Below are positions 11,245 to 63,845 of a stretch of 64,000 bases of DNA, piece after piece. This stretch comes from Branchiostoma floridae (lineage: Eukaryota > Chordata > Leptocardii > Amphioxiformes > Branchiostomatidae). The notes below the pieces were generated by a model. The model searched no databases and was not told where the DNA came from. It saw only the letters and a list, made by a program, of their open reading frames with translations. Where the stretch lies: positions 3,147,703 through 3,211,702 of the forward strand of contig NC_049992.1 of NCBI RefSeq assembly GCF_000003815.2. The letters run 5' to 3'. Every line of letters starts with the position of its first letter. Positions within the stretch are counted from its first letter, which is position 1. The translations under genes were made by a program, and so were the position numbers.

Positions 11245-12609
11245 ATGGCGGTTGAGGCACAGATGACGTCACGTGCGGTGGTGGTGGCAGTTTTACTCGT
11301 TTCCATGGCGACCAGTCATCCTGCCGCGCATGCGCACCTTGTGAGCTGGGCTGTTCCCGCCAAAATAGAAGCCCAACCTGCACCTCAATACGAAGGTAAC
11401 AGCTACGTATACAATCTCTTCTTCAGTACCTCTGTTTGACTGTAAGACGACCAGGGTTGGACAAGTTTTCTAAAATTGACTTGTCCTATCGGGCAAGTAC
11501 TTAAAAAATTTACTTGCCCGAGCCAACTTTTCACTTGCCCGAAATGTAAATGACATTTTTCTATGTACATTCATGGCCTTCAATGGAATTTTTGTTATTG
11601 GCTCTATTTTCTGTGTTAATCAATGCTTGATGTCATGACTTTGAAAAGTAGCAAGTACATCAAAATCCCACTCAATGGAGAAAAGCTAACTTGTCCGATC
11701 GGGCAAGTGGGGAAGGACATGCACTTGCCCGATTGACATTTTCACTTGCCCGGGACTATAGGACTTGTTTATCCCTGGACGACACGAACTTAATTTTATA
11801 GATGACATACTCGCCCCTCGCATTGAATTTCGCCTGTTCTCCAATAGCAACTCAATAGCTAATAATCAACATTTTAAGATTGTCAGAAGATCTGCTCTCC
11901 AGGGTAAGGGGGCACATGGTCAGAGCAGGAGCCCCAGCGCCCTTGTTCCCTCCATTTTGCATTTGGCTGTGTTATACGTTAATAACATATTCAGCACCAA
12001 GGACAGGGCGGGTACACCATCAGTCAAATGAAATCAAATCTATATAATATCTTTTTTCATCTTTATTTTCAGACATCACAGAGTCTACTTTGGCGCTAGA
12101 GGCGCACGAGCCGGTCATAGACGTGCTACCCGAAAGTCAACCCTGGCAACTTTCCTTGGTACTGCAGAAAGACTTTCGTTTATGCTAATTTCTTCTTCTT
12201 TTCTTAATCTTTACCTCCAGACGTCGCAGACTCCAACTCCATAGCGCTAGAAGCGCACGAGCCGGTCCTAGACGTGCTGCCCGAAAGTCAACCCTGACGA
12301 CTTTCCATGGTACTGCAGAAGGGCTTTCGGTTTTGATAACTTGCTAATTTCTTCTTTTCTTAATCTTTACCTCCAGACGTCGCAGACTCCAACTCCTTAG
12401 CGCTAGAAGCGCACGAGCCTCTACTAGAGGCGCTGTCCCCCGAAAGTCAACCCCGCCACCCCGCATCGCAGCCAGACTCCTATCGGCCACTCCTCATCCG
12501 ACTGCCGTGGCCTCTCGCGCGCGCCCTCAGCAAGCGGGCCAGGAAACCGCCAAACATGAACGCCTGGGGGCAGCCGTGGGGCAAGCGGGATCTGAGTCTT
12601 GTAAACTGA
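11245..12609 (+). CDS. Putative secreted, amidated neuropeptide precursor
   Basis: Two exons join in frame: 11245-11395 (donor G|GTAACA) and 12377-12609 (acceptor CTCCAG), giving 127 codons and a TGA stop. Exon 1 encodes a signal peptide; the hydrophobic core AVVVAVLLVSMA is followed by small residues. The second Met (11263) would give the more standard signal sequence. The C-terminus reads ALSKR, then ARKPPNMNAWGQPW, then GKR, then DLSLVN. KR and GKR are prohormone-convertase sites and the Gly before KR donates a C-terminal amide, so the predicted product is ARKPPNMNAWGQPW-amide, or PPNMNAWGQPW-amide if cut at the inner RARK. I do not recognise this peptide family. An acceptor-like TTCCATTTCAG just before the ATG suggests a 5' UTR intron. 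The gene contains partial copies of its second exon and of its 3' end. Confidence 0.6.
11452..11777. mobile_element. MITE with CAGGGTTGGACAAGTT ends, in the precursor intron
   Basis: The ends CAGGGTTGGACAAG and CTTGTTTATCCCTG form imperfect inverted repeats. They are flanked by a 6-bp duplication, GACGAC, at 11446-11451 and 11778-11783. Inside are repeated CTTGCCCGA and TCGGGCAAGT modules in both orientations. No ORF. A shorter decayed relative is at 25064-25171. Confidence 0.75.
12073..12376 (+). repeat. Two partial upstream copies of precursor exon 2 with acceptors
   Basis: Copy 1 starts at 12073 and copy 2 at 12221; the functional exon starts at 12377, giving periods of 148 and 156 bp. 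Each copy repeats the pyrimidine tract, the CAG acceptor and about 90 bp of coding sequence (LALEAHEPV.DVLPESQP), then departs before the peptide region. Copy 2 meets TGA after ESQP. Copy 1 stays open only to a stop about 16 codons past ESQP. Use of either acceptor without splicing on would give a protein lacking the predicted peptide. Confidence 0.8.
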
Positions 12610-12770
12610 ACTTAAAGAACACGGTATGGAAAATACGTCCAACGTTCAGCCACCTCCGAATCTGTATTTGAGTTCTGGCTCTGGCAAAAACAACATTCAT
12701 CGAATTCCGCATGATATATGAAGTATACTATATGATGAAATAGTAGATATGTTGTGCTCAACGTTATGAA

Positions 12771-12776
12771 ATTAAA
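12771..12776 (+). terminator. Candidate polyadenylation signal of the precursor gene
   Basis: ATTAAA lies about 160 bp past the TGA. It is a common variant signal; cleavage was not verified. Confidence 0.35.
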
Positions 12777-12799
12777 CTTTAAGACCGTGTTTGAGACAA

Positions 12800-61173: not shown

Positions 61174-61179
61174 TTTATT
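61174..61179 (-). terminator. LSM4 polyadenylation signal
   Basis: AATAAA on the minus strand lies about 60 bp past the LSM4 stop codon, the expected place for a short 3' UTR. Confidence 0.6.
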
Positions 61180-61239
61180 TGCTCATCCCTCTTGATGTAA
61201 GACTGCAGTAGAAGAACAGGAAGATGAAGATGACACCAT

Positions 61240-63845
61240 CTATCTAGGTCCGCCTCTTCCTCCTCTCTTGTCTGGACCACCACGACCTCTGCTTCCAAAA
61301 CCTCCTGGAAGAGCAAAGGACCCATGGTCAAAAACATCTCCAGTCGCCTTTTCTTTGTGTAGCAAACAAAAAGCACATTGTACTACATAACAGTTGTTAT
61401 AGGTTAGAATAAATTTTGGCCTGATGCATCTGGCAGGCTACTATCTGATGATCGAGCCACCACATCTATGTGCAAGCATGTCGAACACAATTCAGGGCTC
61501 GAAATACCACATGCATATGCAAGTTTGTGCATGTAAAATTAGTGTGGTGCAAGTTAGTTTAGACCAAACTTGCACCAGTGCAAGTTACTTTTGTCCTCTA
61601 ATACCTGGCATTAGAAAAAGCTTACACACACCAAGAATATTGTCTGTCAGTGAAAGGTAAAAGAAAATGACCCTGAATAAAAAAAACCTAAATTTGTTCA
61701 TGGAGGTTAGACATCCAGGTAAACAATATTTTAAGACAACTCCATCTCTACAATGCTAATGATTCCTATAGTGCTGTCTTACCTTGATTTGCATATTAGT
61801 TACATTTGCATACAAGTTAGTGACTTTGATATGTTCAACTGTTTTTATGTGTACTTGTATGTACTTGTATTGAGTTGTTCTACCACTTCATTCTAGCGAT
61901 GGTAAAGAATAGTGATGGATGTCACTCGAAGCGTCCAGAAGTAATCTAAATCTTATCGACTGTAGACATTGAATTGTCTCAAAAAAAGCTTAAATTCACC
62001 TTTTTATGAAACTGTTTGTAAAATGTTTTGTGAAAGATTTACAACGAAAAATAGAATGCGCTATGGCAAAACAAATATCCAAACACGTATCCCCACTTAC
62101 TCACGTACATTTGCAAATTTCTGATTAACGGTTAACAGTTCACTATTTTGGGTTGTGCAAGTAAGTTTCTTTTGGTGCAAGTTACTTTTGGCTCAACTTG
62201 CACCGGTGCAAGTTGACTGAAAAGTGTATTTCGAGCCCTGCAATTCAATGGAGTTAACTGGACAGTGAGTGCTGCCTGGATTAACTCCTGTATTGTGGCA
62301 TTACAATTTCAATAGAATACAAAATGGTAAGTGAGTGGGTGTGTCAAAAGAATGTGTGTACAGCCAATGCAACTGAGAGAAACAGATCAAGGGTTCTGAA
62401 GAAACAAAAGATCACTAGACCTAGAGTGCATCTTCCAGGGAAAGTAGATGTGTGTGTGAGTAGTTATACTAACCTCTGTGTACAGGCCCCCCACGTCCCC
62501 TGCCTCGGCTGCCCTGCTGTTTGGTGCGCTGTTTGCTGACGATGTCCTCCTTCACCATGTCGATGACCTCATCAGGAATACGCAAGTACTTGATGGTGCT
62601 GCCACGGATGTAACACTCAGGCATGCGCCAGAAACGGTCACCATCCTGAGGGGGACAAAGGGAGCTGACTTAGAAGTACACTTGTGTTTATGAGTGTGTG
62701 TGTGTGTGTGTGTGTGCAAGTGTGCAGAAGGGATGAGCAAATACTAGTACTTGATGGCGCTGCCTCGGATGTAACATGCGCCAGAAACAATTGCCATCCG
62801 TGACAAAAGGAACAATTTAGTGTATTTCTGTTCATGTTCATGCAAGAGTGTGTGTGTGTGCGTACGTATGCATGTACATGTATATGTGCACTGGGAATAC
62901 GCAGGTAGTTGATGGTGCTGCCGCGGATGTAGCACTCACTCGCCACTTAGGCATGCACCAGAAACGATCACCGTCCTGTGGGAGACAAAGGGAGCTGATT
63001 TCGAAGTCCAAGTGCACGTGTGTGTGTGTGTACTGGGAATATGCTGCTGTCCCGGACATAACACTGTGCCAGAAAGGATCTCCCTCCTGGTGGGAAAAAT
63101 GTAAAAAAATACATTTCAAACCATTAGGATGCTCAAAGCATTATGGTACACATACATGGTAAATTGTAAAATACATGCAGATCTCTGAACTGAAACACTG
63201 TATGCTTTATTGTAGCTCAATGCCTTGCAAATTGAAAAAAAAAATAATTAAGATTAGAACTGCAACACTTTTGTAAGATAAACCCATAACATTCATCTGA
63301 TTCCCACCCACCCGTGATGTGCAGATGACGTCCCTGAGTTTGATGTTCATCCAGTTGTCGCAGGCCTCCAGATGGCCGTTGTACGTCTCTCCGTTCTTCA
63401 GCTCCACCAGCTGGGAAACACAAGAAACAAACTTGGAGAAAAGTCTACTTCACACCTACATGTAAGAAAAAATAAGAGCACAGAATGCAGAGCTTGTGGT
63501 AGACATGCTTAAGCCATGGTTTTGTTAGAAAAAGTTGTCACAAACTTATTCTTCTTGAAATACGTAACAAGTATGAAGCTGAAGCCTTCTATCCTGGATG
63601 TGGTATAAAATAAAGGTATAAAGTTTATTACATGTAGTTATAATGAGCAAGTTAAACCATTCTTGATGCCCCATTTAAAATATTTCAAGATAGCAATTGT
63701 GACAATTAATTATGATGGATACTGATGCTTGTATGAACTGTTACAAACATTTTAATAATCTTATGCACTTCATACAAATGTAAATAGCACTGACGTAACT
63801 TACCATAGGGTGGTTCTGAGCAGTTTTCAGCAATGACAGAGGTAG
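61240..63845 (-). CDS. LSM4: U6 snRNA-associated Sm-like protein LSm4 (first exon outside window)
   Basis: Four exons: 63804-63845 ([14 protein letters not shown]), 63312-63410 ([20 protein letters not shown], then [12 protein letters not shown]), 62474-62645 ([20 protein letters not shown], then [15 protein letters not shown] and an RG-rich start), 61240-61304 ([21 protein letters not shown] and stop). All phases agree. The sequence follows vertebrate LSm4 almost residue for residue through the Sm1 and Sm2 motifs. The start codon must lie in an exon to the right, because the first visible exon begins after the Met. LSm4 is part of LSm2-8 on U6 snRNA (splicing) and LSm1-7 (mRNA decay, P-bodies). 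The RG-rich tail is a usual arginine-methylation region and is somewhat shorter than in human. Confidence 0.95.
61493..62240. mobile_element. MITE of the CAGGGCTCGAAA family, TGCAAGTT variant, 5-bp target duplication
   Basis: It begins CAGGGCTCGAAATACC and ends TATTTCGAGCCCTG. CAATT is duplicated on both sides (61488-61492, 62241-62245). GTGCAAGTTA and AACTTGCACC modules lie at both ends. At 748 bp it is the longest of the family here. It sits in the last LSM4 intron. Confidence 0.88.
62745..63088 (-). repeat. Three partial tandem copies of LSM4 exon 4 (the 62474-62645 exon)
   Basis: Upstream copies on the minus strand start near 62803, 62975 and 63088; the functional exon starts at 62645. 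They repeat DGDRFW and [21 protein letters not shown] sequence up to CGTATTCC, then run into (CA)n-rich spacer. All are broken: 5 bp lost in the first, an insertion in the second, a large deletion in the third. The 62975 copy keeps a good acceptor (CCCACAG|GACGG). Confidence 0.88.

Follow-up and report, generated by a model that had tools for sequence, protein, structure and literature searches.

Tandem copies of exon edges in four amphioxus genes and elsewhere in the Branchiostoma floridae assembly

A stretch of 64,000 nucleotides from the amphioxus Branchiostoma floridae (contig NC_049992.1 of assembly GCF_000003815.2, positions 3,147,703 to 3,211,702 of the forward strand; hereafter the window) carries tandem arrays whose units run across exon edges in four neighboring genes, which encode a small putative precursor, a TTLL10-like protein, an ACAP-type protein and LSM4. 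These loci are further cases of the mirage, a known type of amphioxus minisatellite that spans an exon-intron boundary, and exon-edge arrays of this kind reach well beyond the window but patchily. They probably arise from blind local tandem duplication, in which the duplicated units include one exon edge by happenstance and the harmless class of duplications survives.

Exon-Edge Arrays in the Window

Tandem Repeats Finder (TRF), self-blastn, a local alignment scan and unit-by-unit alignments together confirmed tandem copies at all ten places that had been named in a first-pass annotation of this DNA. The annotation had placed every one of them across an exon edge; eight do lie across a splice site, while the other two, at the 3' end of the precursor gene and in the last exon of the ACAP gene, lie across the end of the coding sequence. 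With a weak case at the acceptor of ACAP exon 24, which was absent from the earlier list, the splice-edge arrays of the window, as aligned against the gene models, number eight plus one weak. The similarity on which they are called exceeds chance, given that 0.13% of positions pass the same alignment test against distant segments of 1 kb.

Acceptor-type arrays have their copies upstream, and in the aligned cases of the window the last copy runs on into the intact exon. At the acceptor of precursor exon 2 (array 12050..12453, plus strand), two copies beginning at 12050 and about 12195 precede the functional acceptor at 12376/12377. Another array of this type stands at the acceptor of ACAP exon 7 (exon 44735-44918; array 44057..44838, plus strand), with four copies of about 157 bp upstream of the real one. 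Two upstream copies, one of them decayed, are found at the acceptor of the LSM4 exon at 62474-62645 (array 62575..63031, minus strand), and single copies occur at the acceptors of TTLL10 exon 6 (exon 21745-21916; array 21875..22045, minus strand; copy at about 21965-22045) and TTLL10 exon 2 (exon 24616-24805; array 24741..24985, minus strand; decayed copy at about 24905-24985). The weak array at the acceptor of ACAP exon 24 (exon 57121-57230; array 56919..57147, plus strand) likewise consists of one copy, with 73% identity.

Donor-type arrays of the window show the opposite order, with the copies downstream of the intact exon, so that the functional exon forms the end of the array in the aligned splice-edge cases of both types. 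The donor of TTLL10 exon 11 (exon 17338-17498; array 16801..17405, minus strand) is followed by four downstream copies of about 132/98 bp, and that of TTLL10 exon 7 (exon 20910-21081; array 20055..21029, minus strand) by two copies of about 160-185 bp and about 14 units of 31 bp, most of which contain CAG/GTACGT or CAG/GTATGT. Both arrays thus include nested short units at the donor itself, of 17 bp in exon 11 and 31 bp in exon 7, and a 6-bp microhomology, TACATG, was recognized by eye at the unit junction in the exon 7 alignment. The exon 11 units are 98% homogeneous by TRF, more so than those of the ACAP exon 7 array. A third donor-type array, at TTLL10 exon 2 (24181..24704, minus strand), has one copy at 24181-24362 with a spacing of 340-341 bp.

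The two arrays with no splice edge comprise the coding end and 3' sequence of the precursor gene (12573..13033, plus strand; copy at 12801-13033) and the last coding segment of the ACAP gene with its stop codon and 3' sequence (58571..58986, plus strand). Among 22 duplication events in the window, none has a unit that holds a whole exon with both its splice sites (0.8 expected) and none has a unit lying wholly inside an exon (0.6 expected); these zeros fit removal by selection, though they are not significant.

Occurrence Elsewhere in the Assembly

The assembly searched comprises 513,431,437 bases in 431 contigs, of which contigs C1-C19 (35.3 to 17.1 Mb) were sampled. One sample consists of genes taken regardless of repeats, namely seven CCT genes (L025-L031) and five myosin genes (L032-L036) out of many, with a total of 61 exon hits in 82.9 kb; about nine multi-exon CCT clusters were present among the hits listed. 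The other consists of 20 arbitrary stretches of 10 kb (200 kb in all), whose places were chosen by hand.

Four mirage edges were found in the 12 sampled genes, and they fall in two genes, both encoding myosin. In myosin gene L033 of contig C10, an array of 22 units of 50 bp, 11 of them exact, stands at the P-loop exon (GESGAGKT; array L033:1957-3030), each unit comprising the acceptor and the first 22 bases of the exon. Another exon of L033 has decayed acceptor copies and a donor that is duplicated at 97% identity, and one donor of myosin gene L034 is duplicated at 93% identity. Across the seven CCT genes, which account for 40 of the exon hits, there are no mirages; a duplicated pair near an exon hit of L030 stops before the exon. 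The unit homogeneity of the TTLL10 exon 11 and myosin P-loop arrays suggests that both may have turned over recently.

Six of the ten edge-touching arrays in the arbitrary stretches were inspected, and all six span an edge that could be placed by eye at GT/AG. They are located at the donor of an HPS5 exon, the donor of an SLC6 exon and the acceptor of that same exon, the acceptor of another SLC6 exon, a legumain donor and the donor of a gene that we take to be BRG1-like from its pair of HSA and BRK domains. The HPS5, SLC6 and legumain exons match Pfam themselves, whereas in the BRG1-like gene only the neighboring exons do. All three SLC6 edges lie in one stretch (L015), and the HPS5 copy has lost its GT. 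The remaining four arrays comprise three at segments without a Pfam match and one outside the Pfam test.

The first-pass annotation had supposed that such arrays are genome-wide. Their recurrence in unrelated genes on other chromosomes shows that they extend well past the window, but the distribution is patchy. Extrapolation from six inspected cases per 200 kb would give about 15,000 mirages in the genome, a number on the scale of 10,000 with a Poisson range of roughly 6,000-34,000, and an inferred figure drawn from clustered cases, three of them in one stretch.

A further observation concerns a kinesin gene (G000 C2:31967610-31968130), in which two cut-off copies of profile positions 75-103 lie upstream of the full exon, with starts 151 and 154 bp apart; this case was seen in the profile-match table alone.

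Exon Edges against the Background of Local Duplication

With local duplication defined as a Smith-Waterman score of at least 40 within 1 kb, 12.7% of all window positions are locally duplicated. The corresponding value for the 20 arbitrary stretches is 10.2% of 7,792 tested positions, with a range of 0 to 48% per stretch and a median of 3.9%, and the value for the window falls within this spread. The arbitrary 200 kb contain 35 arrays, or about one per 6 kb. Duplication is patchy among the stretches, with local tandem arrays taking up 48% of tested positions in L004 (1-4772) and 38% in L015 (1-5961).

Measured by position, exon edges of the window are not enriched. The four multi-exon genes give 86 splice edges, and seven of these lie in local duplications, to be compared with the 12.7% of all positions; the number rises to nine when the weaker acceptors of TTLL10 exon 6 and ACAP exon 24, which fall below the test threshold, are added. 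Circular shifts gave an expectation of 10.9 +/- 3.7 edges versus six observed at the nearest grid point. Duplicated shares are 8.3% of 350 grid points at edges versus 10.9% of 393 in coding interiors, 8.2% of 995 intronic points 21-150 bp from an edge versus 19.1% of 1,480 in deeper intron, and 11.8% of 3,157 intergenic and other points. The position test tends to underrate enrichment, since each mirage adds its own intronic copies to the intron class and so inflates the background. A verdict on edge targeting from position alone was therefore rejected as the final answer, and an event-based test and a test on the arbitrary stretches were added.

Of the 33 arrays tested in the arbitrary stretches, 10 reach to within 15 bp of a coding-like edge versus 9.0 +/- 2.5 expected, or 8.8 +/- 2.3 when arrays were shuffled within their stretch. 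Stricter thresholds for coding segments gave eight versus 7.7 expected and seven versus 5.1-5.7 expected. Whole array extents were used, and two of the 35 arrays were dropped, one as too long and one as of low complexity. When trained on CCT and myosin exons only, the coding-segment caller found 18 of the 46 known window exons and placed 13 of 38 segments off exons; for the arbitrary stretches it was retrained with the window genes and is still a noisy proxy for exons.

Decay and Splice Signals of the Copies

Substitutions between copies and functional exons were compared with a dead-copy model, in which a copy is free to drift and change in the real exon is almost all synonymous. The transition bias of the model was that of the intron sides (67 transitions and 55 transversions), a fourfold factor was assumed for CpG, and the real exon was allowed 5% of nonsynonymous changes; the predicted nonsynonymous share is 0.49-0.68. 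The comparison covers eight arrays, with ACAP exon 24 and both coding-end arrays set aside, as is a count on the myosin exon-1 array, whose unit ends are not homologous. The array-averaged changes amount to 34.4 synonymous and 30.6 nonsynonymous, and the pooled test with one copy per array gave a median P of 0.067 (range 0.0045-0.33). The counts fit neutral decay in four of the eight arrays (precursor, TTLL10 exon 2 donor, TTLL10 exon 2 acceptor and TTLL10 exon 6), as do those of the nearer LSM4 copy and, at TTLL10 exon 11, of the oldest copy. Judged by the counts, most copies look dead; a stop codon is present in ACAP copy 3 and an 11-bp insertion in the far copy of LSM4.

Splice signals were scored with a small matrix trained on the window, and the scores are indicative only. 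The five donors of TTLL10 exon 11 score alike (11.9), and the acceptor of the LSM4 far copy scores 13.1 versus 12.2 for the real acceptor. At random positions, the median best site scores 6.2 bits for donors and 6.4 bits for acceptors. Splice signals are often intact in the copies, and site strength alone is therefore unlikely to be the discriminator between copies and functional exons. We infer that the safeguard is exon definition, i.e., the pairing of partner sites across a short exon, which these crude scores leave unproven.

The LSM4 far copy (62893-63010, minus strand) also has a new donor, CGA/GTGAGT (8.1), 36 nt downstream of its acceptor; the in-frame size makes this segment a candidate new microexon.

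Origin and Survival of the Arrays

The explanation that we favor, and regard as probable, is that the mirages are products of blind local tandem duplication. Template switching or slippage, followed by unequal exchange, would duplicate sequence locally at a high rate throughout the genome with no need for exon recognition, and arrays would persist where coding sequence is duplicated without change to the protein. Partial-exon copies may be tolerated since the array still ends in the intact exon, beside its other splice site, and exon definition should tend to ignore the intronic fragments because each carries one of the exon's two splice sites. The fragments would then decay and re-expand as any minisatellite does. 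In favor of this explanation are the share of locally duplicated positions in the window and the arbitrary stretches, the near-chance number of edge-touching arrays in those stretches, the lack of units that hold or lie inside a whole exon, the place of the functional exon at the array end, the pooled fit to the dead-copy model together with the stop codon and the insertion, and the microhomology in the TTLL10 exon 7 array.

Several results weigh against this explanation. Counted by event, 11 of 14 duplications in the gene spans of the window cross exactly one exon edge (nine splice edges and two coding ends) versus 3.15 expected; the self-blast list alone gives eight splice-edge events among 13 (P 0.003, or 0.010-0.061 at a detection factor of 1.3-2). 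Of eight events in the 12 sampled genes, four cross an edge versus 13% expected (P 0.014), and P becomes 0.029-0.091 after detection factors of 1.3-2 for the slower decay on the exon side. The events of the sampled genes were counted by ourselves, with an intronic array of L030 entered twice (entered once, the count is 4/7) and a dispersed repeat of L029 omitted; moreover, the window was chosen for its exon-edge feature and three of the four sampled-gene cases come from one gene. Sequence conservation also counts against blind duplication. The copies of TTLL10 exon 7 are an outlier, differing from the real exon by eight synonymous changes and one nonsynonymous change (P 0.007-0.008, uncorrected), a signal that is not significant once corrected for the eight arrays. 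The ACAP exon 7 array had been described as near-identical, which does not hold for the whole unit: all five copies share the first 60 exon bases without a difference, yet their intron sides diverge by 13-32%. By these measures, the copies of both exons seem more conserved than dead copies should be, and such patterns would permit rewriting of the copies from the functional exon. Finally, each ACAP copy is followed about 155 nt downstream by a donor-like site of 4.4 bits, versus 4.0 bits for the real donor of exon 7, and acceptor-like sites scoring 8.1-9.6 bits lie upstream of the TTLL10 exon 11 copies, no more than 300 nt away. Our confidence in blind duplication is slightly lowered because the splice scores fail to show that the copies are without a partner.

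The excess of events in the window and in the 12 sampled genes is what would be expected if duplication were aimed at exon edges, with splice-site motifs, R-loops or co-transcriptional breaks turning the junctions into hotspots for slippage or template switching, and the three separate edges hit in myosin L033 and the three SLC6 edges of L015 point in the same direction. We nevertheless consider such targeting unlikely, as there is no excess in the arbitrary stretches (10/33 vs. 9.0) or by position in the window (7/86 vs. 12.7%), no mirage in the seven CCT genes with their 40 exon hits, and an advantage in detection for exon-side copies, which stay detectable 1.28-1.33-fold longer in simulation; the window itself was picked after the fact. 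The sequence analysis, which could address neither, yielded no evidence of R-loops or of slippage promoted by splice sites. The earlier statement that chance clustering at exon edges is unlikely is not supported by these position and array counts, although the event counts do show an excess. Comparison with blind placement is accordingly divided, with an excess of events in the window and the sampled genes and none of arrays in the arbitrary stretches. Targeting is unproven, and a three- to fourfold excess per event at exon edges is compatible with the data, the three tests disagreeing. A different reading starts from the coding constraint and holds that the partial copies have a function, as alternative exons, or trade sequence with the real exon, through repeated conversion by it. 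It draws on the synonymous excess at TTLL10 exon 7 (8:1), ACAP exon 7 (4-5 synonymous to 1-4 nonsynonymous changes) and the LSM4 far copy (5:2), on the LSM4 far-copy acceptor that beats the real one with a donor 36 nt on, and on the donor-like sites of the ACAP copies, which at least equal the real donor. Against it, the counts are compatible with neutral decay in half of the arrays as well as in the oldest copy at exon 11 and in the nearer of the two LSM4 copies, the pooled P is 0.067, and what resembles a donor after each ACAP copy is the next unit's acceptor, CAGTGACT, and not a conserved donor. We rate this reading as quite improbable. Much the same small chance is given to the narrower proposal that some intronic fragments are alive, either overwritten repeatedly by the functional exon or trading sequence with it (through ectopic gene conversion, for which the spliced transcript may be the source) or sometimes spliced in. 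The candidates are the copies of TTLL10 exon 7, those of ACAP exon 7 and the LSM4 far copy. If this were true, the exon halves would be conserved as coding sequence as the intron halves drift, and mirages would be a lasting source of new exons and introns. The idea that the copies are translated exons was tried by synonymous and nonsynonymous counts and rejected: TTLL10 exon 7 alone is singled out, and this signal is lost upon correction.

An artefact of assembly, in which two diverged haplotypes of a highly heterozygous genome were joined head to tail, is very improbable. Heterozygosity in amphioxus is high, the arrays are known here from a single assembly, and 100 N in the window indicate scaffolding. 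Joined haplotypes do not readily account for several arrays of three to 22 units with differing unit sizes, identities of 73-98% and breaks in mid-exon. Arrays at other amphioxus loci were judged to be real by resequencing (PMC3902484, in excerpt) and from trace data (PMC3087553, in excerpt).

Relation to Known Mirages

The arrays had been likened to the mirages of amphioxus, and they do match the exon-edge minisatellites described in the excerpts of PMC3087553 and PMC3902484. The name is used in PMC3087553, which reports cases in BflGb6 and BflGb9 and, in the portion consulted, cites Adh3 and two references with retinol dehydrogenase and presenilin in their titles; it describes reverse transcription PCR (RT-PCR) that suggests regular splicing and proposes that introns may be gained from mirages. 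PMC3902484, in the portion consulted, describes tandem repeats of 60 and 108 bp at the splice sites of lancelet PGBD5 and cites TnC, and in PMC3188502, as excerpted, "mirage" carries another meaning.

Like the arrays of the window, the mirages of amphioxus Adh3 (Canestro et al., 2002, as cited in the excerpts of PMC3087553 and PMC3902484) are minisatellites whose units lie across an exon-intron boundary. Adh3 is reported with regular splicing, units of 10-72 bp and somatic instability, whereas the units here measure 17-341 bp and are known from the sequence of one assembly. The amphioxus globin genes have units of 150-160 bp at 5' and 3' boundaries with AG/GT kept in many, those of BflGb6 being 81-100% identical (PMC3087553, in excerpt). 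Such units resemble ours, but the globin work deals with single genes and includes RT-PCR, while the present analysis covers several unrelated genes and a background rate from DNA. PGBD5 similarly shows imperfect tandem copies over 5' and 3' splice sites; it is one gene, for which the consulted portion of PMC3902484 gives no comparison with the genomic background, and such a background is measured here. The RdRp gene of potato resembles our loci in that tandem copies of an intron-exon stretch can supply new splice signals, and differs in that the new intron and exon are in use (PMC4974935, in excerpt), whereas the copies here are known as DNA.

No genome-wide survey of mirages was found among the open-licence papers listed, an absence that is not proof that none exists. 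As far as we could find, the cases elsewhere in the same assembly are new, and the estimate of mirage frequency against the background of local duplication is the first. If mirages are this common genome-wide, they amount to a natural experiment on splice-site choice, with decoys, some scoring like the real site, within a few hundred bases of it. They would make it possible to test to what extent exon definition alone protects splicing and at what rate new exons and introns come from tandem duplication. They also illustrate that a striking pattern at exon edges can stem in large part from tandem duplication that is frequent everywhere, together with selection on the survivors.

Genes of the Window and Other Sequence Features

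Exons of the four window genes were placed by homology and GT-AG phase, and the spliced products were searched against Pfam. All four spliced proteins are open throughout, and three contain Pfam domains. The TTLL10-like gene (16031..26162, minus strand) has 12 exons for 855 aa with a TTL domain (PF03133, E 1.2e-51), and the ACAP-type gene (40615..58634, plus strand) has 28 coding exons for 793 aa with BAR_3, PH, ArfGap and ankyrin domains. Four exons of the LSM4 gene lie within the window (61240..63845, minus strand), with an LSM domain (PF01423, E 3e-18).

The gene of the putative secreted precursor (11245..12609, plus strand) has a GT-AG model with an open frame, in which exon 1 is coding at 11245-11395 and exon 2 at 12377-12609. 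The protein has 127 aa, its C-terminal end being ...KRARKPPNMNAWGQPWGKRDLSLVN, and the Pfam search of the spliced product matched no family. From the signal peptide and the motif ...KRARKPPNMNAWGQPWGKR..., both recognized by eye, it looks like the precursor of a secreted neuropeptide, carrying an amidation/dibasic cleavage site.

A TGAG/TGAA microsatellite at 22302-22360 (minus strand) begins right at the donor GTGAG of TTLL10 exon 5, as if it had outgrown from the splice site. Two open frames, at 1-453 and 10243-10467 (both minus strand), resemble by eye what are presumably a piece of a reverse transcriptase and a piece of a mariner-type transposase, respectively. Dispersed related repeats in both orientations (31005-31346, 32682-33014, 15592-15937 and similar) are probably copies of mobile elements, distinct from the tandem arrays.

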